Shown here piece after piece: positions 28,967-47,647 of a DNA stretch of 64,000 nucleotides. A program made the position numbers and the translations under genes. The notes beneath the pieces are model-generated. The model searched no databases. It had not been told where the DNA came from and worked only from the letters and a program-made list of their open reading frames with translations. Positions within the stretch are counted from its first letter, which is position 1; each line of letters starts with the position of its first letter. The DNA comes from Domibacillus sp. DTU_2020_1001157_1_SI_ALB_TIR_016 (GTDB taxonomy: Bacteria > Bacillota > Bacilli > Bacillales > Domibacillaceae). The DNA lies in the NCBI RefSeq assembly GCF_032341995.1, contig NZ_CP135439.1:248001-312000 (forward strand), read 5' to 3'.

Positions 28967-28970
28967 AAAG

Positions 28971-30776: not shown

Positions 30777-30805
30777 TTGACGAAAAGAAGAGAAGGTTAT
30801 ATGCT
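30777..30805 (+). promoter_or_regulatory. Sigma-A promoter of the aco operon
   Basis: -35 TTGACG (30777-30782), 17-bp spacer, -10 TATGCT (30800-30805), followed 2 bp later by the SorC-type operator. Confidence 0.7.
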
Positions 30806-30807: not shown

Positions 30808-30842
30808 TTACAAATGTAACACATGAGAACAAAAGTAAAGGG
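30808..30842 (+). promoter_or_regulatory. 35-bp operator shared with the gut operon (aco copy)
   Basis: Begins TTACAAATGTAAC and continues through GAACAAAAGTAAAGGG, i.e. two direct ACAAANGTAA half-elements about two helical turns apart. It is identical in 30 of 35 positions to 45194-45228 and sits at the same distance from the -10 box. It covers the transcription start and reaches into the ribosome site. Two SorC regulators end this operon. Confidence 0.65.
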
Positions 30843-30852: not shown

Positions 30853-31836
30853 ATGGTAACTAAATTAAACCTGCCCACTTCAATCACGGATGAAAAACTA
30901 AGAGACTTATACAAAGAAATGTGGCTGATCCGTTATTTTGACGAGAAAGTAGACCAGTTTTTTGCGAAGGGGCTTATTCATGGAACGACGCACCTTTGTG
31001 TCGGACAGGAAGCATCAGCAGCCGGCTCGATCGCTGTACTCGAGCCTCGGGACAAAATTGTCTCTACACACCGGGGTCACGGACACTGTATTTCCAAAGA
31101 AGGCGATGTTAATAAAATGATGGCTGAGCTGTTCGGTCGTGAAACCGGTTACTGTAAAGGAAAAGGCGGCTCGATGCACATTGCAGACGTAGAAAAAGGC
31201 AACTTGGGTGCAAACGGGATCGTAGGCGGCGGCATTCCGCTTGCAGTTGGAGCAGCTCTGACCTCCAAAATGAAAAATGAAGACTATGTAGTGCTTTGCT
31301 TCTTTGGAGACGGGGCGTCCAATGAAGGAAGTTTCCATGAATCGGTCAACCTTGCGGCTATTTGGGATTTGCCGGTTGTGTTTATTTGCGAAAATAACCA
31401 GTACGGCATGTCAGGCCCGGTCAAAGACATGACCCGCGTTGAACATATTGCAGACCGCGCGAAAGCATATGGAATTCCGGGAGAGATTGTAGACGGCTGT
31501 GACATGATCGACATTATGAACAGCGTAGACAACGCTGTGCACCGGGCGCGTGAAGGCGGCGGGCCGACGTTAATTGAAATGAAAACATACCGCTGGAAAG
31601 GCCACTCAAAAAGCGATGCGAAAAAATACCGTACGCGTGAGGAGGAAAACGAGTGGAGAGCGAAAGACGGCATTAAGCGGTTTAAGGAAGCACTGATTGC
31701 CTCAGGTGTTTTAACAGAAGAAGAAGCGAAAGCCTTGCAGGAAGAAGCCAATCAGGAAATTGAAGAAGCGGTGCGATTTGCGGAAGCGAGTCCAGAACCG
31801 TCTATTGATACTTTAGAAGAAGACGTATACGCGTAA
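30853..31836 (+). CDS. acoA: TPP-dependent dehydrogenase E1 alpha (acetoin dehydrogenase type)
   Basis: 327 aa. With AcoB it forms the thiamine-diphosphate E1 that cleaves acetoin (or a related 2-oxo compound) and passes the acyl unit to E2. TPP/Mg motif [13 protein letters not shown]...[17 protein letters not shown] and [10 protein letters not shown] are typical of AcoA/PdhA. GTG/ATG codons further upstream exist, but ATG at 30853 follows AAAGGGAGG and is the start. The first of acoA-acoB-acoC-acoL and two sorC genes. The acetoin assignment is by similarity; control by SorC rather than AcoR makes the true substrate open. Confidence 0.88.
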
Positions 31837-31856
31837 AAACAGGAGGGATGGAGACC

Positions 31857-32864
31857 ATGACAACAGCCACGCCAGCAACAGGAAGAGAAATTACGTATCT
31901 AGAAGCCGTTCGGGAAGCCATGAGCCAGGAAATGCGCCAAAACAGCGATGTATTTATTCTTGGGGAAGACATAGGAGTATACGGAGGTGCGTTCGGTGTA
32001 ACGCGCGGCATGATTGAAGAGTTCGGTCCGGAGCGTGTGCGCAATACACCGATTTCAGAAGCAGCGATTTCTGGAGCAGCGGTCGGGGCGGCTTTGACAG
32101 GGATGCGCCCGATTTTAGAACTGCAATTCTCGGACTTTATTACAATTGCCATGGATCAGATGGTCAACCAGGCCGCCAAAACACGTTATATGTTTGGTGG
32201 TAAAGGAAAAGTGCCAATGGTGCTTCGCACACCGGCCGGATCTGGAACAGGCGCGGCTGCCCAGCATTCACAAAGCTTAGAAGCGTGGATGGCCCATATT
32301 CCAGGATTGAAAGTGGTTCAGCCTTCTACGGCTTACGACGCAAAAGGACTTTTAAAGGCAGCGATGGATGATGACAACCCGGTTGTTTTCTATGAACATA
32401 AGTTACTATATAGAACATCTGGTCATGTGCCAGAAGAACAATACTCTATTCCGCTCGGAAAAGCTGATGTAAAGCGGGAAGGAACAGACGTAACGATTGT
32501 CGCAACAGCCATTATGGTTCATAAAGCGCTTGAAGCAGCAGCGGAGCTCGAAAAAGAAGGCATTAGTGTAGAAGTAGTGGATCCGCGTACGATCGTGCCG
32601 CTCGATGAAGAAACCATTATTAAGTCTGTTAAGAAAACGGGACGTCTCATTGTGGTACATGAAGCGGTGAAGCGCGGCGGCATCGGCGGAGAAATCGCCA
32701 GCATGATTGCGGAAAGTGAAGCATTTGACTACTTAGACGCGCCGATCAAGCGCCTGGGCGGACTGGCAGTGCCGATTCCGTACAATCCGACACTTGAAAA
32801 AGCAGCGATTCCTCAGGTACCGGATATTATGGCAGCAGTAAAAGAAACGGTGAAAAACAAGTAA
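31857..32864 (+). CDS. acoB: TPP-dependent dehydrogenase E1 beta
   Basis: 335 aa transketolase-type beta subunit. Start region [18 protein letters not shown], glutamate contacting TPP in [10 protein letters not shown] and the K+ site region [11 protein letters not shown] are all typical. Of two ATGs 9 bp apart, the first overlaps the AGGAGGG ribosome site, so the second (31857) is the usable start. 20 bp after acoA. Confidence 0.93.
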
Positions 32865-32879: not shown

Positions 32880-34211
32880 ATGGCGAAAGAAATCTTTATG
32901 CCAAAGCTGAGCAGCACGATGGAAACAGGAACCCTCCTTCAATGGTTTAAGGAAGAGGGAGACAGCGTCGAGATTGGCGAGCCGCTTTTTGAAATTATGA
33001 CCGACAAAATCAATATTGAAGTAGAGTCATATGATGAAGGCGTTTTATTAAAGAAATACTTTGGAGAAGACGACCAGGTGCCGGTGAATCATGTAATCGG
33101 CTACATTGGAACCGAAGGGGAAGACGTACCACAGGAAGCGCCAGGTGTATCGGGTGCTGAAGCAGAAAAAGCCGCTCCAACGGAAAACCCAGAGCCGCAG
33201 CTTGTTGCAGCGGGAAGTGCAGAAGCAGTGATCACAGACGAAAAGCCGCGGGCTACACCGGCCGCCCGGCATCTTGCCCGGACAGAAGGAATCGAGCTTC
33301 GTGACGTACAGGGCAGCGGCCCAAATGGACGCGTGCATAAAAAAGATGTAACGGCTCACGCAGAGGGCAGTCCGGTCGAGGCGAAAGCAACACCGCTTGC
33401 CCGCAAGGTTGCAGCAGGAGAAGGTGTCGATTTGTCCACTGTACAGGGAAGCGGCGCCAATGGCAAAGTCGTGAAACAAGATGTGATTTCCGCCAAGCGC
33501 ACAACAGCGCCTGCTGCGGATACATCGACGCGCAAAAAAATGTCGGGTATGCGCAAAGTGATCGCTGAACGTATGGTACAAAGCAAGCAGACAGCACCTC
33601 ACGTCACGATGACGAGCGAGATTGATATGACAAAAGTAAAAGAACTGCGTGCATCGCTTCTGCCAGTTGTGGAAAAGCAGACGGGCTTCCGCTTGTCATA
33701 CACGGAAATTCTAATAAAAGCAACAGCCGCTGCTCTGGCAAGGCATCCGGAAATCAACGTATCGCTTGAAGGCGATGAAATCGTCCAGCACGGCCACGTT
33801 CACCTCGGCCTTGCCGTAGCGGTGGCGGACGGTTTAATGGTGCCGGTCATTAAAGATGTGCTCGCTAAGGGGCTGGCGGAGCTGACACAGGATGCGAAAG
33901 AAATCAGCCAGCGGGCGCGTGAAAACAAGCTGCTCCCTGATCAAATGAAAGGGTCTACGTTTACGATCAGCAATGTTGGGATGTATGCCGTTGATATGTT
34001 TACGCCGGTCATTAATCAGCCAGAAAGCGCGATCTTGGGCGTAGGACGGATGCAGGACAAGCCAGTCGCGGTAAACGGAGCGCTTGAAATCCGGCCAATG
34101 CTGACACTCAGCTTGTCATTTGACCACCGTGTGATTGACGGGGCACCGGCAGCCGCCTTTTTAACGGAGCTTAAAGACATTTTAGAAAATCCATATGAGC
34201 TGCTTGTATAA
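32880..34211 (+). CDS. acoC: Dihydrolipoyl acyltransferase E2 with tandem subunit-binding domains
   Basis: 443 aa. Lipoyl domain 1-75 with the lipoylated Lys43 in EIMTDKINIEVES, a linker, then two peripheral subunit-binding domains (about 124-160, ATPAARHLARTEGI...GPNGRVHKKDV; about 169-205, ATPLARKVAAGEGV...GANGKVVKQDV), and the CoA acyltransferase domain ending with the catalytic DHRVIDG (about 413-419). The protein is longer than the approx. 400-aa B. subtilis AcoC, mostly because of linkers. Tandem binding domains could hold both E1 and E3 at once. Confidence 0.93.
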   Translation: MAKEIFMPKLSSTMETGTLLQWFKEEGDSVEIGEPLFEIMTDKINIEVESYDEGVLLKKYFGEDDQVPVNHVIGYIGTEGEDVPQEAPGVSGAEAEKAAPTENPEPQLVAAGSAEAVITDEKPRATPAARHLARTEGIELRDVQGSGPNGRVHKKDVTAHAEGSPVEAKATPLARKVAAGEGVDLSTVQGSGANGKVVKQDVISAKRTTAPAADTSTRKKMSGMRKVIAERMVQSKQTAPHVTMTSEIDMTKVKELRASLLPVVEKQTGFRLSYTEILIKATAAALARHPEINVSLEGDEIVQHGHVHLGLAVAVADGLMVPVIKDVLAKGLAELTQDAKEISQRARENKLLPDQMKGSTFTISNVGMYAVDMFTPVINQPESAILGVGRMQDKPVAVNGALEIRPMLTLSLSFDHRVIDGAPAAAFLTELKDILENPYELLV

Positions 34212-34223: not shown

Positions 34224-35609
34224 ATGACATCATACGATATCGTCGTTGTAGGAGGCGGGCCAGGCGGCTATGTCGCCGCGCTTCACGCGGCAGAGCTTGG
34301 CAAAAGGACAGCATTAGTAGAACCAGATTTTTTAGGCGGCACGTGTTTAAACCGCGGCTGCATTCCGTCTAAAACACTGCTCAAGCATGCAGAAATCATA
34401 GAATCCATCGAAAAAGCGAAGAGCTGGGGCATTGAAACCGGGGAAATGACGCTTTCGTTCGATAAAATGAAAAAGCGGAAAAATGACGTGATTGAACGGC
34501 TGCGCGGCGGCATTGCGTTTTTGCTGAAACAGGGCAAAATCGATGTCTATAACGGCTTCGGCTCTGTTAAAGAAGGCGGGCGTGTAGCGGTCAAAACGGA
34601 ATCTGATGAAGAAACGATTCAGGCGGCGAAAGTGATCGTCGCTACCGGTTCAACACCGGCTGTACCGCCGATTCCTGGCCTTGACTCAGTTCGCTTTGAT
34701 ACGAGTGACACGATTTTTGATATTCCAGAGATTCCAAAGTCCGTCGTCATTATCGGCGGAGGGGTGATCGGTGTAGAGTTTGCCTGCATCTTCGCTTCTC
34801 TCAAGTCAAAAGTCACGGTCGTTGAAGCAGCGGATCGAATTGTACCGACAGAAGACATGGAAGCTGCCAAGCTGTTAGCAAAAGCGCTGAAGAAAAAAGG
34901 CGTCGCGATTCAAACAAAAGCGAAAGTGCAGTCGGTACGGGAAGAAAACGGGATCAAAATCGTCACCTGTGTGGATGCGAAAGAAAAAGAGTTTGAGGTG
35001 GAAGCCGATACACTGCTTGTCAGCACAGGAAGACGGCCGAATGTATCTGCAACCGGCGAGCTGAACTTAAACATGAATGGGCCGTTTATCGCTGTAAACG
35101 AGCGAATGGAAACGAGCAGTCCGAACGTTTACGCGGTCGGTGATGTAATTGGCGGCTGGCAGCTGGCCCACGCGGCAAGTGCAGAAGGAGTCGTGGCGGC
35201 AAACAATGCAGCCGGCGTCCCAGATATGATCGACTACAAAGTGATGCCGCGCTGTATTTATACATTGCCGGAAATTGCGGGGGTTGGCTTAACAGAAGAC
35301 GAAGCAAAAGCGCAGGGGATAGACGTACGGGTTGAGAAATTTGATTTTGCCGGAAGCGGAAAAGCGCTGGCAGCCGGCGAGCCGGAAGGATTTACGAAGA
35401 TCATGTACGAAGCGAAGTACGGTGAAATCATCGGTGTGGTGATGGCCGGCCCGCACGTAACGGAAATGATCTCTGAGGCTTCTGCATTTATGTATTTAGA
35501 AGGCACAGTGGATGAAGCAGCCAAAATGATTCATCCTCACCCAACGATCTCGGAAACATTTTTTGAAGCAGCGGTTCACGCGGTCAATAAGCTGAAGAAG
35601 CAAGCATAA
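34224..35609 (+). CDS. acoL: Dihydrolipoyl dehydrogenase E3
   Basis: 461-aa FAD disulfide reductase that re-oxidises the E2 lipoamide and reduces NAD. FAD motif VVVGGGPGGYVAALHA, redox disulfide Cys41/Cys46 in GGTCLNRGCIPSK, NAD motif IIGGGVIGVEFA and the C-terminal active-site HPHPTISE. 12 bp after acoC, 20 bp ahead of the first sorC gene. Confidence 0.95.
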   Translation: MTSYDIVVVGGGPGGYVAALHAAELGKRTALVEPDFLGGTCLNRGCIPSKTLLKHAEIIESIEKAKSWGIETGEMTLSFDKMKKRKNDVIERLRGGIAFLLKQGKIDVYNGFGSVKEGGRVAVKTESDEETIQAAKVIVATGSTPAVPPIPGLDSVRFDTSDTIFDIPEIPKSVVIIGGGVIGVEFACIFASLKSKVTVVEAADRIVPTEDMEAAKLLAKALKKKGVAIQTKAKVQSVREENGIKIVTCVDAKEKEFEVEADTLLVSTGRRPNVSATGELNLNMNGPFIAVNERMETSSPNVYAVGDVIGGWQLAHAASAEGVVAANNAAGVPDMIDYKVMPRCIYTLPEIAGVGLTEDEAKAQGIDVRVEKFDFAGSGKALAAGEPEGFTKIMYEAKYGEIIGVVMAGPHVTEMISEASAFMYLEGTVDEAAKMIHPHPTISETFFEAAVHAVNKLKKQA

Positions 35610-35629: not shown

Positions 35630-36571
35630 ATGGGAGGGGACGAACAAAAGCTGATGGTGAAAACTGCTTCGCTTTACTACCACGATGAATGGACACAGGC
35701 GCAAATTTCCAAGCAAATCGGCATGTCCCGTCCCATTGTCTCCCGGCTGCTTCAGCGGGCAAAGGATGCGGGAATTGTCGAAGTGTTTATTAAGGATGAA
35801 ACGGTTCACACAGTTGCCTTGGAACAGCGGCTTGAAGCAGTATACGGCCTTGACGAAGCAGTTGTCGTGCCTCAAAGCCGGGCGCAGGGCCATTCTATGA
35901 AAAGTGCTGTTGCAGCAGCCGGTGCGTACTATGCCGCTAAAAAAACCAGGAATGTGAACCGCCTCGGTATTTCCTGGGGAACCACTGTGGCGGAGCTCGT
36001 GAAGCATTTTCCGTTTGATAAGCGTCCGGATTTGCACATTGTCCCGCTTGAAGGCGGGATGGGAAGGGCATCGATCGATATTCACGCGAATCACCTGGCT
36101 TATGAGCTGGCGAAAAAAAGCGGCGCCTCCTGTTCGTATTTATATGCACCGGCGATTGTGGATTCAGAAGAAATGAAAAATCACTTTATGAAGATGGCTG
36201 ACATTAAAAGTGTACTTCATGAAGGAGCCAGTGTGGAAATGGCGATTATCGGCGTAGGCAATCCGCACGAAGATTCGACGCTTGAGAAAGTAGGCTACCT
36301 TCGTAAAGAAGAAGCGGAATCTCTTAAAGAAGCAGGAGCAGCGGGTGATGTTGGATTTCGTTTTTTTAATGACCACGGCTCCGCCATTGATCACCCTTTT
36401 AACAACAGAGTGGTCGGCATTCCGCTTGAGCAGCTTAAACAAATTCCATCCGTCATGGCGGTGGCAGATGGAACGAATAAACAAAGAAGCATGAAGGGTC
36501 TTCTCGCAAGCGGAATCGTCAATGTATTAGTCATTGATGAAGGCTTGGCCATGGCGCTTCTGAACAATTGA
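35630..36571 (+). CDS. SorC-family transcriptional regulator, copy 1
   Basis: 313 aa. N-terminal winged HTH (about 8-55: LYYHDEWTQAQISKQIGMSR) and a C-terminal sugar-phosphate-binding domain of the SorC/DeoR-C type (RLGISWGTTVAEL, VPLEGGMGRASIDIHAN, VGVGNPH-like IIGVGNPHEDST). SorC proteins are tetrameric and respond to phosphorylated sugars or polyols. The gene is the fifth of the aco unit (20-bp gap), so it is probably autoregulated through the operator at 30808-30842. Clearly paralogous to the next gene. Confidence 0.9.
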   Translation: MGGDEQKLMVKTASLYYHDEWTQAQISKQIGMSRPIVSRLLQRAKDAGIVEVFIKDETVHTVALEQRLEAVYGLDEAVVVPQSRAQGHSMKSAVAAAGAYYAAKKTRNVNRLGISWGTTVAELVKHFPFDKRPDLHIVPLEGGMGRASIDIHANHLAYELAKKSGASCSYLYAPAIVDSEEMKNHFMKMADIKSVLHEGASVEMAIIGVGNPHEDSTLEKVGYLRKEEAESLKEAGAAGDVGFRFFNDHGSAIDHPFNNRVVGIPLEQLKQIPSVMAVADGTNKQRSMKGLLASGIVNVLVIDEGLAMALLNN

Positions 36572-36734: not shown

Positions 36735-37679
36735 ATGTTAAGCTGGGAAGAGCGCCGTCAACTTGTGAAGGTGGCGAATTTATATTATACGGAAGGCTGG
36801 ACACAGCAGCAGATTGCCAAAAAAGTCGGGGTGTCCCGTCCAGTGATTTCTAAAATGCTGCAGCGGGCAAAGGACGCCGGCATAGTAGAAGTGTACATAA
36901 AAGACGAAAGTGTGCATACGGTAGAGCTGGAGAAAGGATTGGAAGAAAAGTTCGGTCTTCAAGATACCGTAGTAGTTCCATCGGTCGGTTTTACACCAGA
37001 TATGGTGCGCCGTGCGGTCGGGCAGGCTGCTGCTCATTATGTGTCACGTCATTTAAAAACAGATGTGGAGCGGCTCGGCATTTCCTGGGGGACGACACTG
37101 TCTGAATTTGTAAAGGAATATCCATTTGAGCGGCGGGAGAATATGAATATTGTGCCGCTTGTCGGCGGCATGGGAACAAAAAGTGTAGAGATTCATGCCA
37201 ACCAGCTGGCGTACGAGCTGGCGAAAAAAATGAACGGCACCTGCTCATACTTGTACGCACCTGCCATTGTAGAATCAGTCGAATTAACTGAGCGGCTCGT
37301 ACAAATGCAGGATATTGCCCAGGTGCTCGAAGAAGGAAAAAATGTAGAAGTAGCGATTGTTGGAATCGGGAACCCGCACAAGGGATCTACGATGAAAGAC
37401 ATCGGCTATATCCATGAAACAGATATCCAAAGCTTGAAAAAAGCAGGAGCCATCGGAGACATCGGTTCCCGCTTTTTCGATCAGGATGGTGTCCCGATTG
37501 AACATGAATTAAACAAGCGGATTATCGGTCTCCGGCTGAGAGACTTAAAGAACATTCCGTACGTGATCGGCATTGTCGAGGGAACCTACAAAGCGGAAAG
37601 CATCGAAGCAGCCCTGAAAGGCGGCTACGTACAAACGCTCATTACCGATGAACAAACCGCATTAGCTCTTTTAAACTAA
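36735..37679 (+). CDS. SorC-family transcriptional regulator, copy 2
   Basis: 314 aa, same architecture as copy 1 and alike along the whole length (both share GWTQ-type HTH, SWGTT, GGMG, IHANQLAYELAKK, YLYAPAIV and GNPH motifs). It has its own extended -10 promoter and cre-like site and is separated from copy 1 by a terminator. The presence of two paralogues and of two matching operators (aco, gut) suggests a division of labour or a mixed oligomer. AAAGAGGG lies 8 nt before the ATG. Confidence 0.9.
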   Translation: MLSWEERRQLVKVANLYYTEGWTQQQIAKKVGVSRPVISKMLQRAKDAGIVEVYIKDESVHTVELEKGLEEKFGLQDTVVVPSVGFTPDMVRRAVGQAAAHYVSRHLKTDVERLGISWGTTLSEFVKEYPFERRENMNIVPLVGGMGTKSVEIHANQLAYELAKKMNGTCSYLYAPAIVESVELTERLVQMQDIAQVLEEGKNVEVAIVGIGNPHKGSTMKDIGYIHETDIQSLKKAGAIGDIGSRFFDQDGVPIEHELNKRIIGLRLRDLKNIPYVIGIVEGTYKAESIEAALKGGYVQTLITDEQTALALLN

Positions 37680-37788: not shown

Positions 37789-37838
37789 TTTTTAGAAAAA
37801 ATCGTGATAGCATGTAATTAAGCAAGGAGGTCATATTG

Positions 37839-39950
37839 ATGTATCTGGACGAAAGAAGCAGCTTATTGTTAAAAGACCTCGTTTTCAATCCTCATGTTAA
37901 AAACAAGGATTTAGAGGAAAAGTACGGGCTGAGCCGGCGCCAGGTCGGTTACAGTATTAACAAAATTAACAGCTGGCTGACCTCAAATAATTTGCCTGTT
38001 ATTGAAAGGACAAAAAACGGATTTTTTATCATTCAAACAGAAGTCCGCTCTTACTTTAAAATGGATCATCAAGCAGAGGCCGCCGGGCAGCCGTACATTT
38101 TTTCTGAGAATGAACGGTCAGAGCTCATCTTACTTATGATTTTAAGCAAAAGGGAGGAATTGTCGCTTATCCATTTTACCAGTGCTCTATGTGTAAGCAA
38201 GAATACCATTTTAAATGATTTGAAAATGGCTCAAACGCTGCTGCAGCCGCACGGTCTTGAAGTAGGTTACTCCCGGCAGAGCGGGTACGAAATGATCGGA
38301 AGTGAGATTCAAAAAAGAAAATTTCTGATTCATCTTGTGCAAAGAATACTTGAAAAAGAGCATGGGGAATGGGCTCTTGAAAGTGTCAAAGAAATTCATA
38401 AACAAAGAAAAGCGGATATTCAGCAATGGCTTGAGCAAGTAGAACAGCAGTTGAATTTAACGTTTACCGACGAAAAAATGAAGCAGCTTCCTTACATCCT
38501 TGCGATTACACTGGAGAGAATTGAGCAATTTGAACGAATTGATGCGGCATTTTGTATTCATTACGAGGAACTGTCAGATACGAAAGAATATCAGGCGGTC
38601 GAGCTGCTTTTGCAAGGTGATAAAACCATTCCAAGGGAAGAGCGGCTGTTTATCGCCTTAAACCTCCTGGCATCCAATGTTTCTTCCTATGAGGTCCTGA
38701 CAGATACAGATCTTCCTGAACTCGTAAAAGCAGTAGAAACCACCTTGCACTTGTTTGAAAAAAATGCCTGCATTGAGCTAAAGGAAAAAGAAAACTTAAC
38801 CCGGCTTATTTTTATTCATATGAAGCCGGCTTATTACCGGATCAAGTATCATCTGACCACTTCTAACCAGTACGCCGAAAAAATTGATGCAGAATTTGGA
38901 GAACTTCATTTTTTAATTAAGCAGTCTATCGCGCCGTTAGAAGAACTGATTGGAGAGCCCATTCCAGAAAGTGAGATCGTCTACTTAACGATGTTTATAG
39001 GGGGATGGCTCGAACGGCAGGGGGACCGGATCGACAGCAAAATACGGGCGGTCGTGGTTTGTCCAAACGGATTGTCAGTTTCAAAGCTGATGAGACAAAC
39101 ACTTCAAACCATTTTTCCGGAGTTTTTATTTTGGGATTCTCTATCGATCAGAGAATTTCAGCAGTATACGCGCGAGTACGAATTGGTTTTTGCCCCGCAT
39201 GTACTGCTGACGGATAAACCCCTGTTTATTGTAAAGCAGCTGCCGACGGAAGAAGAGAAAATGCAGCTTAGGAAACGGGTGATGCAGGAGTTATATGGAT
39301 ATGTGCCATCCGCCCTGAATGTGGAAGAAATTTTTTCAATTATTCACAAGTATGGCCAGATCAAAGACGAAAAAAAGCTAAAAAAAGAATTACAGACACT
39401 GCTCGAGGCGAAGCAGGCAGGGGCAGGAATTCAAACGCTGAAAAAACAGGAGCGGCTGGACTTGACCCATTTTATCAACGAAAGCACGCTGACCATTGTC
39501 CCGTCTGTGTCCGATTGGAAAGAAGCCATCCGTCTGGCCGCAGCTCCGCTCGTTCAAGCCGGGAAAATCGAGCCGGAATACACAGAAGCGATGATCAAAG
39601 AACACAACTACGAAAATCCTTATATGGTTTTGGGAAAACATGTCGCTATCCCTCATGCGAGCCCGGAAAAAGGCGTGCACGAAACAGCGATGGGCCTGCT
39701 GTGCATCGAGGATGGTGTGCCATTTTCAGACCATTTTCATATTCATTTAGTGGTCGTGATCGCGGCAAAAGACAAAGAAAAGCATATTCGAGCATTGTTT
39801 CAGCTTTCACAGCTGGCGCTTGAGCACGAAGAAGTTCAGCGAATAGCAAAAGCAAAAAGCAAAGCGGACGCTGCCGGGAGAATTAAAATGTGTATAGAAA
39901 AGGGTGAGCAAAATGGACAGTCACATTACCTTAACGAAACAGCTGATTGA
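37839..39950 (+). CDS. PRD-containing transcriptional activator with EIIB- and EIIA-like domains
   Basis: 703 aa. N-terminal HTH (YGLSRRQVGYSINKIN) and a second HTH (about 105-160, CVSKNTILNDLKMAQ), two PRD domains (about 190-395), an EIIB(Gat)-like domain with Cys408 in VVVCPNGLSVSKLM and a C-terminal EIIA(Fru/Mtl)-like domain with His606 in VAIPHASPEKG. This is the MtlR/LicR architecture: the PTS phosphorylates the PRDs and EII-like domains to tune activation by sugar supply and by HPr. It heads the Gat-type operon and overlaps the EIIA gene by 38 bp. TTG at 37836 is possible, but ATG at 37839 has better spacing to AAGGAGG. Confidence 0.9.
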   Translation: MYLDERSSLLLKDLVFNPHVKNKDLEEKYGLSRRQVGYSINKINSWLTSNNLPVIERTKNGFFIIQTEVRSYFKMDHQAEAAGQPYIFSENERSELILLMILSKREELSLIHFTSALCVSKNTILNDLKMAQTLLQPHGLEVGYSRQSGYEMIGSEIQKRKFLIHLVQRILEKEHGEWALESVKEIHKQRKADIQQWLEQVEQQLNLTFTDEKMKQLPYILAITLERIEQFERIDAAFCIHYEELSDTKEYQAVELLLQGDKTIPREERLFIALNLLASNVSSYEVLTDTDLPELVKAVETTLHLFEKNACIELKEKENLTRLIFIHMKPAYYRIKYHLTTSNQYAEKIDAEFGELHFLIKQSIAPLEELIGEPIPESEIVYLTMFIGGWLERQGDRIDSKIRAVVVCPNGLSVSKLMRQTLQTIFPEFLFWDSLSIREFQQYTREYELVFAPHVLLTDKPLFIVKQLPTEEEKMQLRKRVMQELYGYVPSALNVEEIFSIIHKYGQIKDEKKLKKELQTLLEAKQAGAGIQTLKKQERLDLTHFINESTLTIVPSVSDWKEAIRLAAAPLVQAGKIEPEYTEAMIKEHNYENPYMVLGKHVAIPHASPEKGVHETAMGLLCIEDGVPFSDHFHIHLVVVIAAKDKEKHIRALFQLSQLALEHEEVQRIAKAKSKADAAGRIKMCIEKGEQNGQSHYLNETAD

Positions 39951-40392
39951 ACTTCAAGCAAATCACCGCTCAAGCTCAGCTGTTATTGAGCACTTGTTTG
40001 AAAAACTGCATACACACCAGTATGTAAAGGAATCTTTTTTAGAAGCCGTGTTGAAGAGGGAGGAAATCTACCCGACCGGATTGCCGCTTTCAAAAATGGG
40101 TGTGGCCATTCCGCACACGGACTCAGAGCATGTGTTAAAGCCGGCTATCGCGGTCAGTGTCCTGCAAAACCCGGTTGTATTCAATATGATGGGCAGCCCG
40201 GACACACAAATTAGTGTCGATATTGTACTGATGCTGGCAATCTCTGATCCGAAAAAGCAGCTGGCCATGCTGCAGCGGCTGATGAATGTTTTTCAGGATG
40301 AACAAGCGATGGAAGCCATTAAAAATGCCGAGGCAGAAGAAAAAATTGTCGAGCTGCTGAATAATAAATTGCAGCTTATCGAAATAAAGTAA
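39913..40392 (+). CDS. PTS EIIA component, galactitol type
   Basis: 159 aa PTS_EIIA_2 domain. His68 in GVAIPHTDSEHV is the phosphorylation site that takes phosphate from HPr and hands it to the EIIB 41861-42139. The sequence resembles GatA of the galactitol system. An in-frame GTG at 39904 overlaps the AAAGGGTGA ribosome site, so ATG 39913 is the start. Overlaps the regulator gene by 38 bp. Confidence 0.88.
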   Translation: MDSHITLTKQLIELQANHRSSSAVIEHLFEKLHTHQYVKESFLEAVLKREEIYPTGLPLSKMGVAIPHTDSEHVLKPAIAVSVLQNPVVFNMMGSPDTQISVDIVLMLAISDPKKQLAMLQRLMNVFQDEQAMEAIKNAEAEEKIVELLNNKLQLIEIK

Positions 40393-40394
40393 GG

Positions 40395-40408
40395 TGAAAG
40401 CGCTTTAA
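40395..40408. promoter_or_regulatory. cre-like site before the EIIC gene
   Basis: TGAAAGCGCTTTAA fits the cre consensus in 13 of 14 positions and lies between the EIIA stop and the EIIC start, where bound CcpA would act as a roadblock inside the operon. Confidence 0.5.
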
Positions 40409-40434
40409 TCTCATATTAATCAGGGGGTGTAAAC

Positions 40435-41841
40435 ATGATTAAAGATGTTGTGGATTTTGTATTAGATTTAGGGCCATCCATTATGCTTCCCATTATTATG
40501 CTTGCGTTTGGACTTATTTTAAAACAGGGATTTAATAAGTCGTTCCGAGCGGCTTTAACCATCGGTATCGGCTTCGTCGGAATTAATCTTGTGATTGGTC
40601 TGCTTATGGAAGCGCTCGGGCCTGCCACACAAGCCATGGTCAAATCATTAGGGCTCAGCCTAGACATCCTGGATGTCGGCTGGCCGATCGGCGCGGCTAT
40701 TTCATTCGGTACACCGGTGGCCCCGCTTATGATTCCGCTTATTCTCATATTGAATGTAATTATGCTTTCGTTAAACTGGACGAAAACATTGAATGTCGAT
40801 ATTTGGAATTTCTGGCACCTTATTTTCGCCGCTTCTATTGCGTACTATGCGTACGACAATATGCTGCTCGCTATTGTAGTCGGCCTGGTTGTTTCCGCGA
40901 TTACCTTGAAACTGGCGGACTGGACGGCTCCGACAATCGAGCATCACTTCGGGTTGAAGGGTGTATCGATGGCCCATTCCGAAACCGTTAACTTTGCACC
41001 ACTCATGTATGCATCTAACCGAGTCATTGACAAAATACCTGGACTGAATAAGCTGCATGCCGATCCTGAAACCTTGAAAAAACGCTTTGGTATTTTCGGC
41101 GAACCGCTTGTTATGGGGCTTGTGCTGGGGATGTTAATTGGCCTTCTTGGCGGATATGACGCGAAAGGCGTTCTGACGCTGGGCGTGCAAATGTCAGCTG
41201 TCCTCATTTTAATGCCGCGAATGGTTGCCCTGCTGATGGAAGGGCTTATCCCGATCTCGGAAGGCGCGCGCGATTATATTAACCGGAAATTTCCCGGGAA
41301 AAACGTGTACATTGGGCTTGATACAGCCATCGTCATCGGGCACCCGGCTAATATGGCTGTAGCGCTTTTAATGGTTCCGATCACAATCCTGCTGGCAGTG
41401 ATTCTGCCTTACAACAACATGCTTCCATTTGCTGATTTATCCGTGCTTCCATTTACCGTTGTCTGGGCAGTTGCTGCTGCTAGAGGCAATATTATTCGCG
41501 GATTAATTAACAGTATCTTTACGCTGATGATTGTGTTCTTTTTGGCAACAAACCTGGCAGATCTTGCAACGACGATGGGACGTGCAGTCGGCTTTGCTTT
41601 CCCTGAAGGGGCCACATTAATTTCGGGGATTGACCTTGGATCACACGTTCTTCCATGGATTATCCTTCGCCTGCTTGATCCGTCTAATCCTTATTTCTTT
41701 GCCGCAATCGGCGCAGCCGTTGTGTACGCCTCGCTTTGGTACTGGGTACGCAACGATATCCGCAAGCAGTACGCCAAGGAAATGGGCCTTGATGCACAGC
41801 CCGAAAATGGAGCAGATAAAAAACTTGAAAACATTAATTAA
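40435..41841 (+). CDS. gatC: PTS EIIC component, galactitol type
   Basis: 468-aa polytopic permease of the EIIC-Gat family. The N-terminal region (VLDLGPSIMLPIIMLAFGLILKQG) and AAISFGTPVAPLMIP match GatC-like proteins; about nine to ten TM segments. It moves and phosphorylates a hexitol or related polyol together with EIIA and EIIB. The specific sugar cannot be read, since this family includes galactitol, arabitol and other polyol systems. Ribosome site AGGGGGTG 6 nt before ATG. Confidence 0.9.
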   Translation: MIKDVVDFVLDLGPSIMLPIIMLAFGLILKQGFNKSFRAALTIGIGFVGINLVIGLLMEALGPATQAMVKSLGLSLDILDVGWPIGAAISFGTPVAPLMIPLILILNVIMLSLNWTKTLNVDIWNFWHLIFAASIAYYAYDNMLLAIVVGLVVSAITLKLADWTAPTIEHHFGLKGVSMAHSETVNFAPLMYASNRVIDKIPGLNKLHADPETLKKRFGIFGEPLVMGLVLGMLIGLLGGYDAKGVLTLGVQMSAVLILMPRMVALLMEGLIPISEGARDYINRKFPGKNVYIGLDTAIVIGHPANMAVALLMVPITILLAVILPYNNMLPFADLSVLPFTVVWAVAAARGNIIRGLINSIFTLMIVFFLATNLADLATTMGRAVGFAFPEGATLISGIDLGSHVLPWIILRLLDPSNPYFFAAIGAAVVYASLWYWVRNDIRKQYAKEMGLDAQPENGADKKLENIN

Positions 41842-41860
41842 TTATTAGGGGGAATAAAGA

Positions 41861-42139
41861 ATGGCAAAAAAAATATTGGTTTCATGCGGAACAGCAGTCG
41901 CTACGTCAACGGTTGTCGCTAAAAAAGTAGAAGAGACATTGAAAAACAAAGGGTATGACGTCGTTGTCGAGCAATGTAAAGCATCAGAGGTTCCTTATAA
42001 AGCAGCAGGTGCCGATGTGATTGTCACGACTACACCAATCAGCGATGCGGGAAGCACGCCTGTTATTCAAACCATTTCTTTTCTAACAGGTGTTGGAATC
42101 GACGCAGATATCGAAAAAATTATTCAGTACTTGGGATAA
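41861..42139 (+). CDS. gatB: PTS EIIB component, galactitol type
   Basis: 92 aa. Phosphocysteine Cys9 in KKILVSCGTAVATSTVV followed by the small EIIB-Gat fold. Placed 19 bp after EIIC. The order EIIA-EIIC-EIIB differs from the E. coli gat order A-B-C. Confidence 0.92.
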   Translation: MAKKILVSCGTAVATSTVVAKKVEETLKNKGYDVVVEQCKASEVPYKAAGADVIVTTTPISDAGSTPVIQTISFLTGVGIDADIEKIIQYLG

Positions 42140-42196
42140 AAAGGCGGAGGGGGAACTCTCCCCTCTTCTTATGATGCGATGGGGGAGGTGTTTTCG

Positions 42197-42631
42197 ATGT
42201 CTATTTACACGTACAGCAGATTATCAAAAAACATGACAATCTTTTTGCCAGTGCTGGTTATGGCTGGCCTTTTCGTCTGGGCCATCTATGGATTGCTGTC
42301 AGAAAACAGGTTTCCGTTAAATGAGCTGATTCTATATACAATGCCGGTGCTTCTTTTGTCTTCTTTTATCGGGCTTCACAATCCATCGAGTGTAAAAGTG
42401 ACCGACCAGTCGATTACCTTCAGCGGCTTTGGCCGAAGCCACACGTACACATGGGAAGAAGCGGGTGTTATTTTTATCCGGAAGTATGAGTATGTGGGAA
42501 AGACGTTTATCCGGCTTGGCAAGCCGCGCATTTTAGGCGGCAGATACTGGATTACACATGAAATGAATGACTATAAGGAGCTCCTCAGCCTTTTAGAACA
42601 GAAAAGCCAAAAGGACGTGAAAAGAGCATGA
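42197..42631 (+). CDS. Two-TM membrane protein with PH-like domain, unknown function
   Basis: 144 aa. Two hydrophobic helices (LPVLVMAGLFVWAIYGLLS and LYTMPVLLLSSFIGL) then a cytosolic beta-rich part (VKVTDQSITFSGFGRSHTY, EEAGVIFIRK, GGRYWITHEMNDYKELL) that reads like a bacterial PH-domain protein. The longer frame starts at 42179, but GGGGGAGG 8 nt before ATG 42197 fixes the start. It sits between PTS EIIB and the dehydrogenase and overlaps the latter by 4 bp (ATGA), so it is a true operon member. I do not recognise a role. Confidence 0.7.
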   Translation: MSIYTYSRLSKNMTIFLPVLVMAGLFVWAIYGLLSENRFPLNELILYTMPVLLLSSFIGLHNPSSVKVTDQSITFSGFGRSHTYTWEEAGVIFIRKYEYVGKTFIRLGKPRILGGRYWITHEMNDYKELLSLLEQKSQKDVKRA

Positions 42632-43656
42632 AGGCATCCGTTTTCTATGATAAACAAACCATTCAATACGAACAGCGGGCCATTCCGGAAATAGGACCTG
42701 GAGAAGTGCTGTTAAAAATGGAAGTGTGCGGACTGTGCGGCACGGATATTCACAAGGTGCTTGACGAATCCGTACCAGAATCAAGCATTCTCGGCCATGA
42801 AGTATCCGGTACGATTGTCCAAACAGGACAAGGGGTTTCGAATTTTAAAGAAGGAGACAGGGTATTCGTGGCCCATCATGTACCTTGTTTTACATGCCAT
42901 TACTGCCAGCGGAAAATGTATACCCTGTGCAGGCAGTTTAAAGAAACCAACCTGGATCCAGGAGGCTTCTCCGAATACATTCGTGTACCAGAGCTTCACG
43001 TTAAGCACACGGTGGGAAAACTGCCAGACAGCGTCACCTTTGAAGAAGGAGCACTTGTCGAACCCGTGGCCTGCTGCCTGCACGGATTTGAATCAATTCA
43101 AGTCAAGCCGGGAGACTCGCTTCTTATTTTAGGGGCCGGCCAAATTGGCTGTCTGCAGGTTCAAATTGCCCGTCATCTTTTAGCCGGACAAATCATTGTC
43201 AGTGATATTAATCCCTATCGGCTTGAACAGTCTCTTCAGTTTGGTGCAGATCGTGCGGTTAACAGTAAAGAGGAAGATCTGCTGGATACGGTGATGCGTT
43301 TGACGAACGGAAACGGAGCAGACCACGTAATTATCTCTGCAGGGATAGGCAGCCTGCTTCCTCAAGCAATGGAATGCGTGCGAAGAGGCGGCACGATTCT
43401 TGTTTTTGCTCCGTTTAAAAAGGAGTTCGTACAGATACCAGCTGAACGATTTTTTAATGATGAAATTAAAATAATCGGCTCTTATTCATCCAACCCTTAT
43501 AACTATGAAAGTGCACTTCGAATGATTCAACAAGGGATCATTCAAGCAGATAAAATGGTGACCCATCGTTTTCCGCTTTCACAGCTGCATGAAGCGATTC
43601 GCTGTGCACACGATCCGAATGAAAAAGTGCTCAAGGTACTCATTACCCCTTCATAA
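42628..43656 (+). CDS. Zinc-dependent polyol(-phosphate) dehydrogenase (GatD-like MDR)
   Basis: 342-aa medium-chain dehydrogenase. Catalytic Zn ligands in CGLCGTDIHK and GHEVSG, structural Zn cysteines in CFTCHYCQRKMYTLC, Rossmann motif LGAGQIGCLQVQIA. In the context of a Gat-type PTS it most likely oxidises the imported polyol phosphate (compare galactitol-1-phosphate 5-dehydrogenase). Starts at the ATG of an ATGA overlap with the preceding gene. Confidence 0.85.
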   Translation: MKASVFYDKQTIQYEQRAIPEIGPGEVLLKMEVCGLCGTDIHKVLDESVPESSILGHEVSGTIVQTGQGVSNFKEGDRVFVAHHVPCFTCHYCQRKMYTLCRQFKETNLDPGGFSEYIRVPELHVKHTVGKLPDSVTFEEGALVEPVACCLHGFESIQVKPGDSLLILGAGQIGCLQVQIARHLLAGQIIVSDINPYRLEQSLQFGADRAVNSKEEDLLDTVMRLTNGNGADHVIISAGIGSLLPQAMECVRRGGTILVFAPFKKEFVQIPAERFFNDEIKIIGSYSSNPYNYESALRMIQQGIIQADKMVTHRFPLSQLHEAIRCAHDPNEKVLKVLITPS

Positions 43657-43667
43657 GGAGAAGTGTT

Positions 43668-44339
43668 ATGAATATTACATTGCAGGAAAAAACGGTACTG
43701 CTGATTGGAGGAATCAGCCCAATCAATCAAGCACTTTGTGAAGCACTCGCTGAAGCAGGTGCAAAAGTGTGGCATCAAGTGTTTCAAGAAAAAGAAACCG
43801 TGATGAGCCCCTCCAGCAAAGTGATTGCAGCGGATGTCCGGCAGCCGAGCAAAGTGAAAAAACTGGCAGAATGTATTTTGGAAAAAGATAAAAAGATTGA
43901 TATTTTAATTCATTCTTTTCCAGCCCCTCCAGCCCGGTCTTTTTTGGAGACGGATCCAGAAGAATGGCTGTCTTTGTTCCAATACCATGTGGATGTGCCT
44001 TTTCTGATGTGCCGGGAAATCATGCCGCACATGGCAAAAGCACACGGCGGCATTGTAATCAATATTTCATCATCCGCAGCAGTGACAGGTGAAGGGGGTC
44101 CTCCTTTTGCCGCGGCAAGCAGCACATTACAATCGATGACGCGCGGCCTGGCCCGTGAGTATAAGGAGCAAAACGTACGTGTCAGCGGCATAGCACCTGC
44201 TCTGTTGGCAAAGGAAGAAAAAGAAAATGAGCAGGTCATTTCTTCAACCGTTGCCATGACGCTGCTGCTTTGTTCAGACTATGGAGGCTATATAAGCGGC
44301 GAATCGATTCTCATTGATGGAGGGAAAAGTGTTGGATAA
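43668..44339 (+). CDS. SDR-family protein without the catalytic Tyr/Lys (probable pseudoenzyme)
   Basis: 223 aa with overall SDR layout (Rossmann start KTVLLIGGISPINQAL, NISSSAAVTGEGG, C-terminal GGYISGESILIDGGKS). The canonical YxxxK is replaced by FAAASS (Phe for Tyr, Ser for Lys), and the TGxxxGxG nucleotide loop is altered to GGISPINQ. It is thus unlikely to catalyse the usual redox step. It overlaps the next gene, an intact SDR, which suggests a partner or regulatory role. AAGGAGA precedes the ATG. Confidence 0.8.
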   Translation: MNITLQEKTVLLIGGISPINQALCEALAEAGAKVWHQVFQEKETVMSPSSKVIAADVRQPSKVKKLAECILEKDKKIDILIHSFPAPPARSFLETDPEEWLSLFQYHVDVPFLMCREIMPHMAKAHGGIVINISSSAAVTGEGGPPFAAASSTLQSMTRGLAREYKEQNVRVSGIAPALLAKEEKENEQVISSTVAMTLLLCSDYGGYISGESILIDGGKSVG

Positions 44340-45060
44340 TGTACTCATCATTGGAGGTGCTGCAGGCATTGGACACCAGATTGCTTTAGACTTTGCCGAA
44401 AAAGGATGCTGTACAGCTGTGGCGGATATTGACCAGTCAGCTCTAACAGACATGACCCAGCAAAATCAAATACATGGATTTAAAGCAGATGTCAGCTCAT
44501 GGGAAAGCGTCTCGGAAATGATCGAACAAGTTATCGATAAGATAGGAAGCATTGATACGCTTGTGTTTTCGGCAGGCATAACGAAAAAAGGGAAGCTGGA
44601 AGAAACAAACTGGGCTTTATGGCAAAAAACAATGGCGGTTAACTTACATGGTCTGTTTTTCAGCATCAAAGCCGCCGCACCGCACATGATAGGCAGAAAA
44701 AAAGGAAAAATCGTTATTATCGGCTCTGGCTCTGCTATTACAGGATCGGGAGGAGGCATTCAATATTACGCCTCAAAAGGCGGTGCATTTGGACTTATGA
44801 GATCACTTGTGAAAGAGCTTGGAGAACACCAAATTAATATTAATGTGATCGCCCCGAGAGTCATTGAATCACAAATGCTTGATTCACTTTATCCAACGGA
44901 CGAGCTAAAACAAACGGTCAGAAATAAAATCCCGATCGGAAGACTGGGCAGGCCGTCCGATATTTCTGAACTGGTGCAGTATCTTAGTTCAGCTCAAGCG
45001 GATTATATTCATGGCCAAATCTTTCTTCTTGATGGCGGAAGAACGTATCAAGGAAACTAA
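44332..45060 (+). CDS. SDR-family oxidoreductase (catalytically complete)
   Basis: 242 aa. NAD(P) motif IIGGAAGIGHQIA, NNAG-equivalent FSAGITKKG, catalytic Ser in IIGSGSAITGSGG and YxxxK in YYASKGGAF, C-terminal FLLDGGRTYQGN. Likely acts on a polyol or keto-sugar phosphate made by the operon. The frame is open from 44314; a GTG at 44329 and TTG at 44332 follow GGAGGG at 4 and 7 nt, so TTG 44332 is preferred. It overlaps the previous stop by 8 bp, so the two SDRs are translationally coupled. A strong terminator ends the operon. Confidence 0.87.
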   Translation: MDNVLIIGGAAGIGHQIALDFAEKGCCTAVADIDQSALTDMTQQNQIHGFKADVSSWESVSEMIEQVIDKIGSIDTLVFSAGITKKGKLEETNWALWQKTMAVNLHGLFFSIKAAAPHMIGRKKGKIVIIGSGSAITGSGGGIQYYASKGGAFGLMRSLVKELGEHQININVIAPRVIESQMLDSLYPTDELKQTVRNKIPIGRLGRPSDISELVQYLSSAQADYIHGQIFLLDGGRTYQGN

Positions 45061-45062: not shown

Positions 45063-45125
45063 AAAAGGAAACACGCTATTTTTGCAACAGGATTGAACCG
45101 TTGTAAAAATAGCGTGTTTCCTTTT
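45063..45125 (+). terminator. Terminator of the Gat operon
   Basis: Long stem AAAAGGAAACACGCTATTTT / AAAATAGCGTGTTTCCTTTT (with inner GCAAC/GTTGT pairing), 11-nt loop, ending in TTTT. Confidence 0.88.
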
Positions 45126-45161: not shown

Positions 45162-45191
45162 TTGACTTTAATTCATAGGATGGACTACAAT
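45162..45191 (+). promoter_or_regulatory. Sigma-A promoter of the gut operon
   Basis: -35 TTGACT (45162-45167), 18-bp spacer, -10 TACAAT (45186-45191); the shared operator starts 2 bp later. Confidence 0.7.
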
Positions 45192-45193: not shown

Positions 45194-45228
45194 TTACAAA
45201 GGTAACGTATAAGAACAAATGTAAAGGG
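45194..45228 (+). promoter_or_regulatory. 35-bp operator shared with the aco operon (gut copy)
   Basis: TTACAAAGGTAAC ... GAACAAATGTAAAGGG, identical to 30808-30842 at 30 of 35 positions, with the same 2-bp offset from the -10 box and the same reach into the ribosome site. Candidate binding site of one or both SorC regulators. Confidence 0.65.
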
Positions 45229-45238: not shown

Positions 45239-45607
45239 ATGTGGGGTTATCTTCTTGCGGGGTTTGTCGTTTTATGGCTGCTTCAAATTTATTTGACCAT
45301 GCGTCAGATGAAGCATTATCGAATGACGATTCAACATATGAGCAGAAGAGAAAGCGGTTACTTAGGTGTTGGTGTTGAGAAAAAGAAACTTGGTTCCGGT
45401 ACCGTGCTGATTCTTGTTACAAATGAACAAGGGATTGTTGAAGAATGCCGGGTAATGAGCGGTGTCACGGTTTTTGCTAAATTTAAAAAATGTAAGCGGT
45501 TTATAGGTCAGCATATTTCCGTACTGCATGATGAACAATGGGAAAAGTCGCTCGAAATGGCCACTGATAAAATTAAACAGCAAATGAATACGGCTGTAAC
45601 CGTTTAA
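45239..45607 (+). CDS. gutM: Glucitol operon activator protein GutM
   Basis: 122 aa. One N-terminal TM helix (YLLAGFVVLWLLQIYLTM) followed by the GutM core MKHYRMTIQHMSRRESGYLGVGVEKKK and VEECRVMSGVTVFAKFK. GutM/SrlM accompanies glucitol PTS operons and is annotated as an activator, although its mechanism is not clear and the TM helix argues against a classic DNA-binding role. First gene of the gut operon; GTAAAGGGGTGAT ahead of the ATG overlaps the operator. Confidence 0.88.
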   Translation: MWGYLLAGFVVLWLLQIYLTMRQMKHYRMTIQHMSRRESGYLGVGVEKKKLGSGTVLILVTNEQGIVEECRVMSGVTVFAKFKKCKRFIGQHISVLHDEQWEKSLEMATDKIKQQMNTAVTV

Positions 45608-45641: not shown

Positions 45642-46175
45642 ATGGACTTTTTGGTAAAATTTGCAGAAGGATTTATCGGGATGTTCGAAAAAGGTGGAGA
45701 AACCTTTATGGGCATGTTTACCGGTATCATTCCGACACTCATTTGTTTGATTCTTGCTGTAAACGCTTTAATTAAAATTATCGGGGAAGAACGGATTGAC
45801 CGCTTCGCCCGTAAAACAACGAAAAATATTATTTTACGCTATACGCTGTTTCCACTCCTAGCTGTCTTCTTTTTAACAAACCCGATGGCTTATACATTCG
45901 GGAAGTTCCTGCCAGAGCGTCAGAAACCAGCTTTCTATGATTCAGCTGTTTCACTCGTCCATCCGATCACAGGGTTGTTCCCGCACGCCAATGCGGCAGA
46001 GCTGTTCGTGTACATGGGAATTGCCCAGGGAATTACGACGCTTGGCCTTTCAACGGGACCACTAGCGATCCGGTTTTTCCTTGTCGGCATGATTGTCATT
46101 TTAATCCGCGGGATTTTAACAGAACGTATTACCATTGCGATGATGAAACGCCAGGGTATTTCCATAACGGACTAA
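45642..46175 (+). CDS. srlA: PTS glucitol/sorbitol EIIC
   Basis: 177 aa. EIIC-Gut family: FAEGFIGMFEKGGETFMGMFTGIIPTL at the start and NPMAYTFGKFLPERQKPAFYDSA, with about four TM segments. Together with the EIIBC subunit it forms the membrane part of the sorbitol-type PTS. 34 bp after gutM; ribosome site AGAGGAGGG. Confidence 0.93.
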   Translation: MDFLVKFAEGFIGMFEKGGETFMGMFTGIIPTLICLILAVNALIKIIGEERIDRFARKTTKNIILRYTLFPLLAVFFLTNPMAYTFGKFLPERQKPAFYDSAVSLVHPITGLFPHANAAELFVYMGIAQGITTLGLSTGPLAIRFFLVGMIVILIRGILTERITIAMMKRQGISITD

Positions 46176-46196: not shown

Positions 46197-47234
46197 ATGT
46201 CTGAAAATCAAGCAGTAAATCCACAGTATAAAGCAGTCAAAATTACCAAAGGCAGCAACGGATGGGGAGGGCCGCTTGTCATCCAGCCGGATGAGCAGAA
46301 AAAGTATGTCGTATCCGTTACTGGCGGAGGCATTCACCCGGTTGCCCAGCGCATTGCAGATTTAACCGGTGCACAGGCCGTCGACGGCTTTAAAACATCG
46401 ATTGAAAAAGACGAAATGGCCTGCGTTTTAATTGACTGCGGCGGTACAGCACGCTGCGGTGTGTATCCGAAAATGGGTGTGCTGACGATCAACCTGACGC
46501 CCACATCTCCATCCGGGCCATTAATGAAGTTTATTAAGGAAGACAATTTTGTTTCCGGTGTAAGAGAGCCGGACATTCAGCCGGCAGGCGGAGAAGCAGC
46601 ACCGTCCGTTACTGCGGCAGCACATCCGAAAAATGCCCAGCAGCTGAAAGCAGAAGCGCGCGAAAAAGTCGCACAGATGAAAACCAGCAGCGGTGAACCG
46701 CGCAAGCAGAACATCATTGAAAAGCTGGGCCGTTCGATGGGCGGCGTGATCGGGGTGCTGTACCAGGCAGCACGGGAAACGATTGAGCAGGTATTGAAAA
46801 ACATCATCCCATTTATGGCGCTTGTCAGCACCTTGATCGGGATTATTCTGTACACAGGTATCGGTGATGTTATTGCCAACTTTGTATCGCCGCTTGCCGG
46901 TAATATCTTCGGGCTTCTCGTTCTGTCGGTGATTTGTGCCGTACCGATCCTGTCACCGCTGCTCGGGCCGGGTGCCGTGATTGCCCAGGTCGTTGGTGTA
47001 CTCGTCGGGGTGGAGATCGGCAAAGGGAATATCCCGCCAAGCCTCGCTCTTCCGGCCCTGTTTGCGATTAACCCGCAGGTAGGCGCAGATTTTGTGCCAG
47101 TAGGATTAACACTTGGGGAAGCAAAACCGGAAACAGTAGAAGTTGGGGTGCCGGCTGTTTTAATGTCACGTTTAATTACAGGGCCGCTTGCGGTCGTGAT
47201 TGCATACTTCTTTAGCTTTGGCTTATACGAATAA
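46197..47234 (+). CDS. srlE: PTS glucitol/sorbitol EIIBC
   Basis: 345 aa. N-terminal EIIB-Gut with phosphocysteine in [18 protein letters not shown] ([15 protein letters not shown] at the start) and a C-terminal EIIC2 part from about residue 185 with four TM helices ([31 protein letters not shown]). An alanine/charge-rich linker separates the two. 21 bp after srlA. Confidence 0.93.
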
Positions 47235-47272: not shown

Positions 47273-47647
47273 ATGAAAACGATTTATCAGTCAACTGTTA
47301 CAGAGCTTGGTGCAGACGTGGAGATGTTTGCGGAAGAAAAAATGCTGATTATTTTCAATGAAAGCGCACCGAAAGACCTGCGTGACATCGCGGTTGTGCA
47401 CAGCATTGCGCCGCTTGAAGGTGTGATTGAAGCGGGCGATATTCTGACTTTTGGCGATCAGGCGTACAAGGTGACGTTTGTAGGAGACAAAGTAAACGAA
47501 ACGGTTGCAGAGCTTGGCCACTGCACAATTACGTTTAACGGAGCGGATCATGCAGACCTGCCAGGAACGCTTTGTGTAGAGGATAAAGACATGCCGGTCA
47601 TCTCGGTATCAACAACGATTACATTTCAAAAGCCTGAGGGGGCCTAA
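47273..47647 (+). CDS. srlB: PTS glucitol/sorbitol EIIA
   Basis: 124 aa. EIIA-Gut: IYQSTVTELGADVEMFAEEKMLIIF, with a histidine in DIAVVHSIAPLEG as probable phosphorylation site, then FGDQAYKVTFVGD and LGHCTITFNG. A TTG at 47249 behind AGGAGGGG could also initiate, but ATG 47273 aligns with the start of E. coli SrlB and follows GGAGGC. 2 bp before the SAF-domain oxidoreductase gene. Confidence 0.9.
   Translation: MKTIYQSTVTELGADVEMFAEEKMLIIFNESAPKDLRDIAVVHSIAPLEGVIEAGDILTFGDQAYKVTFVGDKVNETVAELGHCTITFNGADHADLPGTLCVEDKDMPVISVSTTITFQKPEGA

Follow-up and report, generated by a model that had tools for sequence, protein, structure and literature searches.

Twin putative SorC/DeoR-type operators on an acetoin-dehydrogenase-type operon and a gut-DRL operon of Domibacillus sp. 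suggest a regulon for methylerythritol catabolism

The window analyzed here, a stretch of 64,000 nucleotides from Domibacillus sp., carries two operons on the plus strand, separated by a block of gat genes. The first comprises, in this order, the genes of E1-alpha, E1-beta, E2, E3, SorC1 and SorC2, and the second those of GutM, GutA, GutE, GutB and a DRL-family protein. The features are as follows.

30777..30805, plus strand: sigma-A-like promoter of the E1/E2/E3-sorC operon, predicted from sequence, TTGACG (30777-30782)-17-TATGCT (30800-30805)
30808..30838, plus strand: predicted operator O1, half-sites 30808-30819 (TTACAAATGTAA) and 30827-30838 (GAACAAAAGTAA)
30853..31836, plus strand: E1 alpha, TPP-dependent dehydrogenase component (PF00676), of a clade apart from the genome's AcoR-linked AcoA
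31848..32864, plus strand: E1 beta, from the open reading frame and comparison with homologues
32880..34211, plus strand: E2, lipoyl-bearing acyltransferase (PF00364, PF02817 twice, PF00198)
34224..35609, plus strand: E3, dihydrolipoamide dehydrogenase
35630..36571, plus strand: SorC1, SorC/DeoR-type regulator (PF04198)
36735..37679, plus strand: SorC2, SorC/DeoR-type regulator (PF04198), nearest solved chain Lmo0547 (4r9n)
37836..45060, plus strand: gat block, with an MtlR-type regulator with EIIA, GatA, GatC, GatB, a small protein with no Pfam match, a Zn-dehydrogenase and two SDRs
45063..45125, plus strand: terminator-like hairpin between the gat block and the gut promoter (-39.6 kcal/mol, z -10.8)
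45162..45191, plus strand: sigma-A-like promoter of the gut-DRL operon, predicted from sequence, TTGACT (45162-45167)-18-TACAAT (45186-45191)
45194..45224, plus strand: predicted operator O2, half-sites 45194-45205 (TTACAAAGGTAA) and 45213-45224 (GAACAAATGTAA)
45239..45607, plus strand: GutM-family protein (PF06923)
45642..46175, plus strand: GutA, glucitol-type PTS EIIC part, from position, size and comparison with homologues
46197..47234, plus strand: GutE, glucitol-type PTS EIIBC part (NF049924 above cut-off)
47273..47647, plus strand: GutB, glucitol-type PTS EIIA, start picked by eye (mechanical reading frame 47249-47647)
47650..48939, plus strand: DRL/DXR-II-family oxidoreductase (PF21135, SAF), last gene of the gut operon

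The PTS gene set (GutM, EIIC, EIIBC, EIIA) is complete and, as judged by protein family, of the glucitol type. Both regulators belong to the SorC family, with PF04198 matched at 2.7e-66 and 5.9e-79 and the HTH recognized through weak matches to several HTH families. They lie between the two sets of structural genes, as the preliminary description of this DNA had it, but a whole GatABC PTS block lies there too. This block varies among relatives, being absent in the Domibacillus genome G009 and represented by an MtlR-like piece in G016; in Lysinibacillus piscis (L067) the same block stands upstream of the gut genes, and in Salinicoccus loci GatABC adjoins DRL. Upstream of the aco-type operon, at 24328-29828, FdhD-like, molybdopterin formate-dehydrogenase-like, small DUF and formate/nitrite-transporter-like proteins are encoded (named by eye).

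The 35-bp elements at 30808-30842 and 45194-45228 are identical at 30 of 35 positions, and each follows the -10-like box of its operon by 2 bp, which confirms the earlier description. Both contain ACAAANGTAA twice at an offset of 19 bp and reach into the Shine-Dalgarno sequence. The two direct half-elements described earlier are indeed repeated, but each half is itself an imperfect palindrome (left TTACA-AA-TGTAA, right GAACA-AA-[T/A]GTAA, centres 19 bp apart), so that the 'direct repeat' is really a pair of tandem dyads. A degenerate pattern, which like the motif pattern was built from the two window sites themselves, finds these 2 places in the window, whereas 100 shuffles contain no match. 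In the genome of 5,102,716 bp (2 contigs) the pair ACAAANGTAA-N9-ACAAANGTAA has two perfect matches, namely O1 and O2; when up to 3 mismatches are allowed, 14 matches appear, the 12 non-perfect ones all with 3, vs 38 for the reversed control. The paired element is not a product of chance. A large regulon was dismissed, as only two genome sites lie below 3 mismatches; likewise, the element was not found in the genome-wide search ahead of many unrelated genes, a result that would have spoken against a shared regulon, given that perfect copies of the pair number just two. The consensus of 54 sites with up to 3 mismatches is TTTACAAANGTAA[C/T]-N6-GAACAAATGTAAA. The 35-bp elements are best read as putative operators of the SorC/DeoR type, with two tandem dyads, at the spacing suited to a tetramer, over the predicted transcription start.

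The known systems nearest to this arrangement are those of Bacillus subtilis DeoR and CggR, which, according to PMC11229326, combine an HTH with a PF04198 effector domain and bind as tetramers to the two halves of an operator with palindromic signatures. The DeoR right half-operator printed there, TTTACATATGTTCAA, is matched by the right half of the Domibacillus operators in its reverse complement, TTTACAWWTGTTC, and by our own count on the printed sequences the half-site centres are 19 bp apart here vs about 20 for CggR and 23 for DeoR (PMC11229326). Unlike in the DeoR and CggR systems, here two operators serve two operons and lie over the predicted start. In the alignment, the lysine of the DeoR QLKGG motif, which we take to be the Schiff-base residue, is replaced by V in SorC2. 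Planococcus-type loci with a single SorC gene have one closest to SorC2. Lmo0547, the solved chain nearest to SorC2, belongs to Listeria lmo0542-lmo0547, in which lmo0542-0544 carry a sorbitol-PTS annotation; a Listeria DXR-II is present in a table of PMC3847144, and its accession numbering suggests that its gene is lmo0546. A SorC tetramer would bind the two palindromic halves over the transcription start and repress both operons, and the repression would be lifted by a sugar phosphate, most likely MEP or DXP.

Conservation of the motif was surveyed in 86 loci, namely 80 named DRL loci (the best 80 of 297 confirmed DRL relatives among genome contigs) and 6 from relatives; in this sample L058 and L066 come from the same genome, L096 and L097 from the same species, and the palindromic site of L070 is read on both strands. 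With up to 2 mismatches, 44 matches were obtained (20, 10 and 14 at 0, 1 and 2) in 42 distinct places, vs none in either the reversed or the complemented control, while at 3 mismatches there were 46 matches vs 14 and 14 for the two controls. The gene following the 44 matches was that of E1-alpha in 22 cases, GutM in 15, GutB in 3, and SorC2 (in L075), GutA, DRL and none in 1 each. As a point against the overall explanation given below, the motif (up to 2 mismatches) hardly occurs outside Bacilli, being found in 27 of 35 Bacilli loci (L065-L098, L137) vs 1 of the 45 other named loci by our own count. When the best site with up to 3 mismatches was sought from -200 to +120 of the frame, it was present at 31 of 53 GutM and 23 of 49 E1-alpha genes, and at none in the controls; the genes with no site are mostly of Clostridia, in which E1-alpha often comes after DRL in the operon. 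The Domibacillus genomes G016 and G009 have a perfect pair before both E1-alpha and GutM, and G017 has one before E1-alpha, its gut operon lying off that contig. In the genome G012, of the same species, the perfect pair precedes both operons of a second, rearranged copy. That copy (L061, L062) also carries sugar ABC transporter genes and those of a glycerol-3-phosphate-dehydrogenase-like FAD protein and a Zn-dehydrogenase, all named by eye from the translations. Loci reached through E1-alpha rather than DRL give a consistent picture: of six cluster-clade homologues outside the own genome, 5 have the motif, mismatched at no more than one position, and 4 of these 5 were new relative to the named DRL loci. 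L070 (9541-9593) has, ahead of GutB, an operator variant that is palindromic throughout (TTACAAATGTAAC...GTTACATTTGTAA). Comparison with other Bacilli thus recovered the motif upstream of both the E1-alpha and the GutM gene.

The overlap of both window copies with the Shine-Dalgarno sequence, which had been described correctly, might point to an action in the mRNA or to recognition by some regulator besides the two SorC proteins. We regard this as very improbable. The overlap is not conserved, the motif standing 183-221 bp before the E1-alpha frame in Brevibacillus (L093, L096, L097; distances in the 86-locus survey were measured to stop-to-stop frames), and the RNA fold of both leaders was no better than that of shuffles (z -0.35, 0.75), for which reason an RNA element was dismissed. 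The match of one half to the DeoR half-operator, the constant presence of a SorC neighbour and the motif before a SorC2 gene also argue for a SorC-type regulator.

The genes of E1/E2/E3, the Gut-type PTS, SorC and DRL group together across Bacillota. Among the best 80 of 297 loci, E1-alpha or E1-beta was found in 47, Gut EII in 60, SorC in 55 and all three in 43; the 50 loci whose flanks reach 9 kb or more on each side of DRL gave 35, 42, 41 and 35, respectively. E1 was not found within reach of DRL in 15 of these 50 full-flank loci, two of which (L065, L067) are truncated within the gat block. DRL and Gut genes occur with no E1 in some loci, and in Faecalicoccus (L132) a split transketolase (L132:11415-16493), an aldolase and TIM-like genes take the place of E1. 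In L132, L123 and L133, DRL has neighbours of kinds other than E1/E2/E3, among them class II aldolase, UPF0047 and TIM-like proteins. The motif conservation and this gene neighbourhood support the earlier proposal that the acetoin-dehydrogenase-type complex and the Gut-type PTS form a single regulon; with the operator binding itself putative, the twin elements very probably mark one regulon for both operons.

The name 'aco', given to the first operon in the preliminary description, fits the type of complex, although acetoin is probably not its substrate. A separate operon at C2:580768-586356 encodes a sigma-54 activator (AcoR-like) with AcoA, AcoB and AcoC, so the SorC-linked complex is the second one in the genome; the two E1-alpha proteins are 51% identical. 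In the E1-alpha tree, which has long branches elsewhere, the cluster genes and six other homologues form a clade of 57 rows with support of 100/98, and the genome's AcoR-linked AcoA falls in a 14-row AcoA clade (100/100), for 1 of whose 14 members the AcoR neighbour was looked at. The label 'cluster' needs 6 changes on this tree, as six homologues from a 120-genome search lie inside the clade, two of them sequence-identical to listed loci. The GHSKSD loop residue K253 is Lys in 51 of 51 cluster rows vs Glu in 14 of 14 AcoA-clade rows, counting only rows that passed the identity and coverage filters, and Met in human PDH; a basic residue here would suit a phosphorylated substrate. At the E1-alpha loci of the AcoA clade the motif was found in 0 of 14, the best sites having 4 to 6 mismatches. 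The complex thus shares its E1/E2 type with AcoR/sigma-54 acoABCL operons, but differs from them in having SorC genes for the sigma-54 activator in the window, an E1-alpha of another clade, DRL and PTS neighbours, and an operator with no counterpart at 14 of 14 loci. The departure from AcoR/sigma-54 systems claimed earlier is therefore upheld by the SorC neighbours, the other E1-alpha clade and the AcoR-like gene beside the other copy. Acetoin as substrate was rejected, given the distinct AcoR-linked operon and the other clade of E1-alpha.

Decisive for the reading of the pathway is the DRL gene, which closes the gut operon and had no place in the preliminary description. Sorbitol-6-phosphate dehydrogenase, expected from glucitol gut/srl PTS operons, with which the locus has GutM and the EII parts in common, is absent from the operon, and DRL stands instead. 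The protein is closely related to the solved DRL of the DXR-II clade, matching chains 3upl/3upy with E 6.5e-107, and three of the four clade residues (G121, T229, H250) are retained, V351 being replaced by Q (positions counted by eye). PMC3847144 reports that 11 DXR-II clade members make MEP in complementation, among them that of Finegoldia magna, a genome that yielded no further MEP or mevalonate gene; the paper leaves unexplained why DXR-II occurs beside DXR-I and in two Firmicutes with no other MEP or mevalonate genes. The Domibacillus genome, too, carries DXR-I. In the pathway proposed here the family is the published one (PMC3847144), but the direction would be catabolic, from MEP to DXP. 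The Gut-type PTS would take up 2-C-methyl-D-erythritol, a branched isoprene-related sugar alcohol, to give MEP, DRL would act in reverse to form DXP, and the TPP/lipoyl E1-E2-E3 complex would convert DXP into acetyl-CoA, NADH and glyceraldehyde 3-phosphate. The DXR reaction is reversible. DXP is, like acetoin, an acyloin (alpha-hydroxy methyl ketone), and since it has the same CH3-CO-CHOH- group, an acetoin-dehydrogenase-type complex could split it. Purified PDH forms 1-deoxyxylulose, and a mutant PDH yields DXP in vivo, wild-type PDH having given no rescue, according to PMC3424233. In the open-licence literature, in which few subscription journals are represented, no work was found on catabolic DXR-II or methylerythritol use, and nothing on DXR reversibility.

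The isoprenoid context was assessed by a whole-genome pathway search in 36 genomes, chosen by hand, of the 80 loci. IspF was found in 31, GcpE in 31, DXR-I in 25 (24 strong, one partial) and HMG-CoA synthase in 5; the five in which IspF and GcpE were not found are the same five that have HMG-CoA synthase (Oceanobacillus chungangensis, Ornithinibacillus contaminans, Virgibacillus subterraneus, Lentibacillus halodurans and Virgibacillus oceani). In each of these five genomes a single locus brings together E1-alpha, E1-beta, E2, E3, SorC, GutM, A, E, B and DRL. Convincing DXR-I was not found in them, a doubtful partial match in G027 (E 8.2e-4, 47/129 positions) being formally over the cut-off. 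As IspF and GcpE were not found, isoprenoids cannot be made from MEP by the known route in these five genomes, where DRL can hardly serve isoprenoid synthesis, and MEP is therefore favoured as a substrate. Two DRL genes are present in Fervidicola (L100, L104) and in Anaerosalibacter (L110).

It was considered whether DRL might throughout serve isoprenoid synthesis as a spare or fosmidomycin-tolerant DXR, with the PTS and E1/E2/E3 as a salvage or DXP-making route. This agrees with the function published for DXR-II (PMC3847144) and with 7 of the 36 cluster genomes, which have GcpE and IspF and gave no DXR-I match, and in which, for this reason, DRL probably makes MEP and is biosynthetic. As a general account it is improbable, in view of the five mevalonate genomes and of the sugar-type repressor and PTS in the DRL unit. 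A substrate other than methylerythritol is a less remote, though still unlikely, alternative: the same regulon and logic would then serve another polyol or deoxy sugar alcohol, from which DRL would form another 1-deoxy or an ordinary ketose phosphate for cleavage by the lipoyl complex. Gut EII is annotated for glucitol, DRL is assigned by family and has Q at V351, some clusters include aldolase, TIM-like and RpiB-like genes, and GatABC genes recur next to DRL in several loci. The MEP formation reported for the 11 DXR-II members and the three retained residues speak for methylerythritol. The substrate may vary among loci, since some of those with no E1 carry transketolase, aldolase or TIM-like genes.

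Sequence itself shows the two operators with their conservation, the clustering of the genes, the protein families and the genomes with no MEP pathway, whereas we infer SorC binding, the effector, every reaction direction and the substrate. Twin SorC/DeoR operators of one regulon together with a methylerythritol pathway make up the best overall explanation, to which we assign a probability of roughly 0.6. That the regulon is a catabolic one for 2-C-methyl-D-erythritol is thus fairly probable, and we lean, slightly less firmly, towards a widespread and hitherto undescribed 2-C-methyl-D-erythritol catabolism in Bacillota, which would comprise a Gut-type PTS, a reversed DXR-II, a lipoyl 'DXP dehydrogenase' and a SorC regulon.

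The interest of the locus rests on the DRL link. If the proposed reading is true, DXR-II, so far described as an isoprenoid maker, would be primarily catabolic in many hosts, which would explain its occurrence beside DXR-I and in genomes with no MEP pathway at all, and acetoin-dehydrogenase-like complexes would gain a phosphosugar substrate. The 2-methyltetrols of aerosol are products of isoprene oxidation, and the pathway would therefore name a biological sink for them. The catabolic role could be assayed through growth and enzymes in ordinary soil and marine Bacilli.
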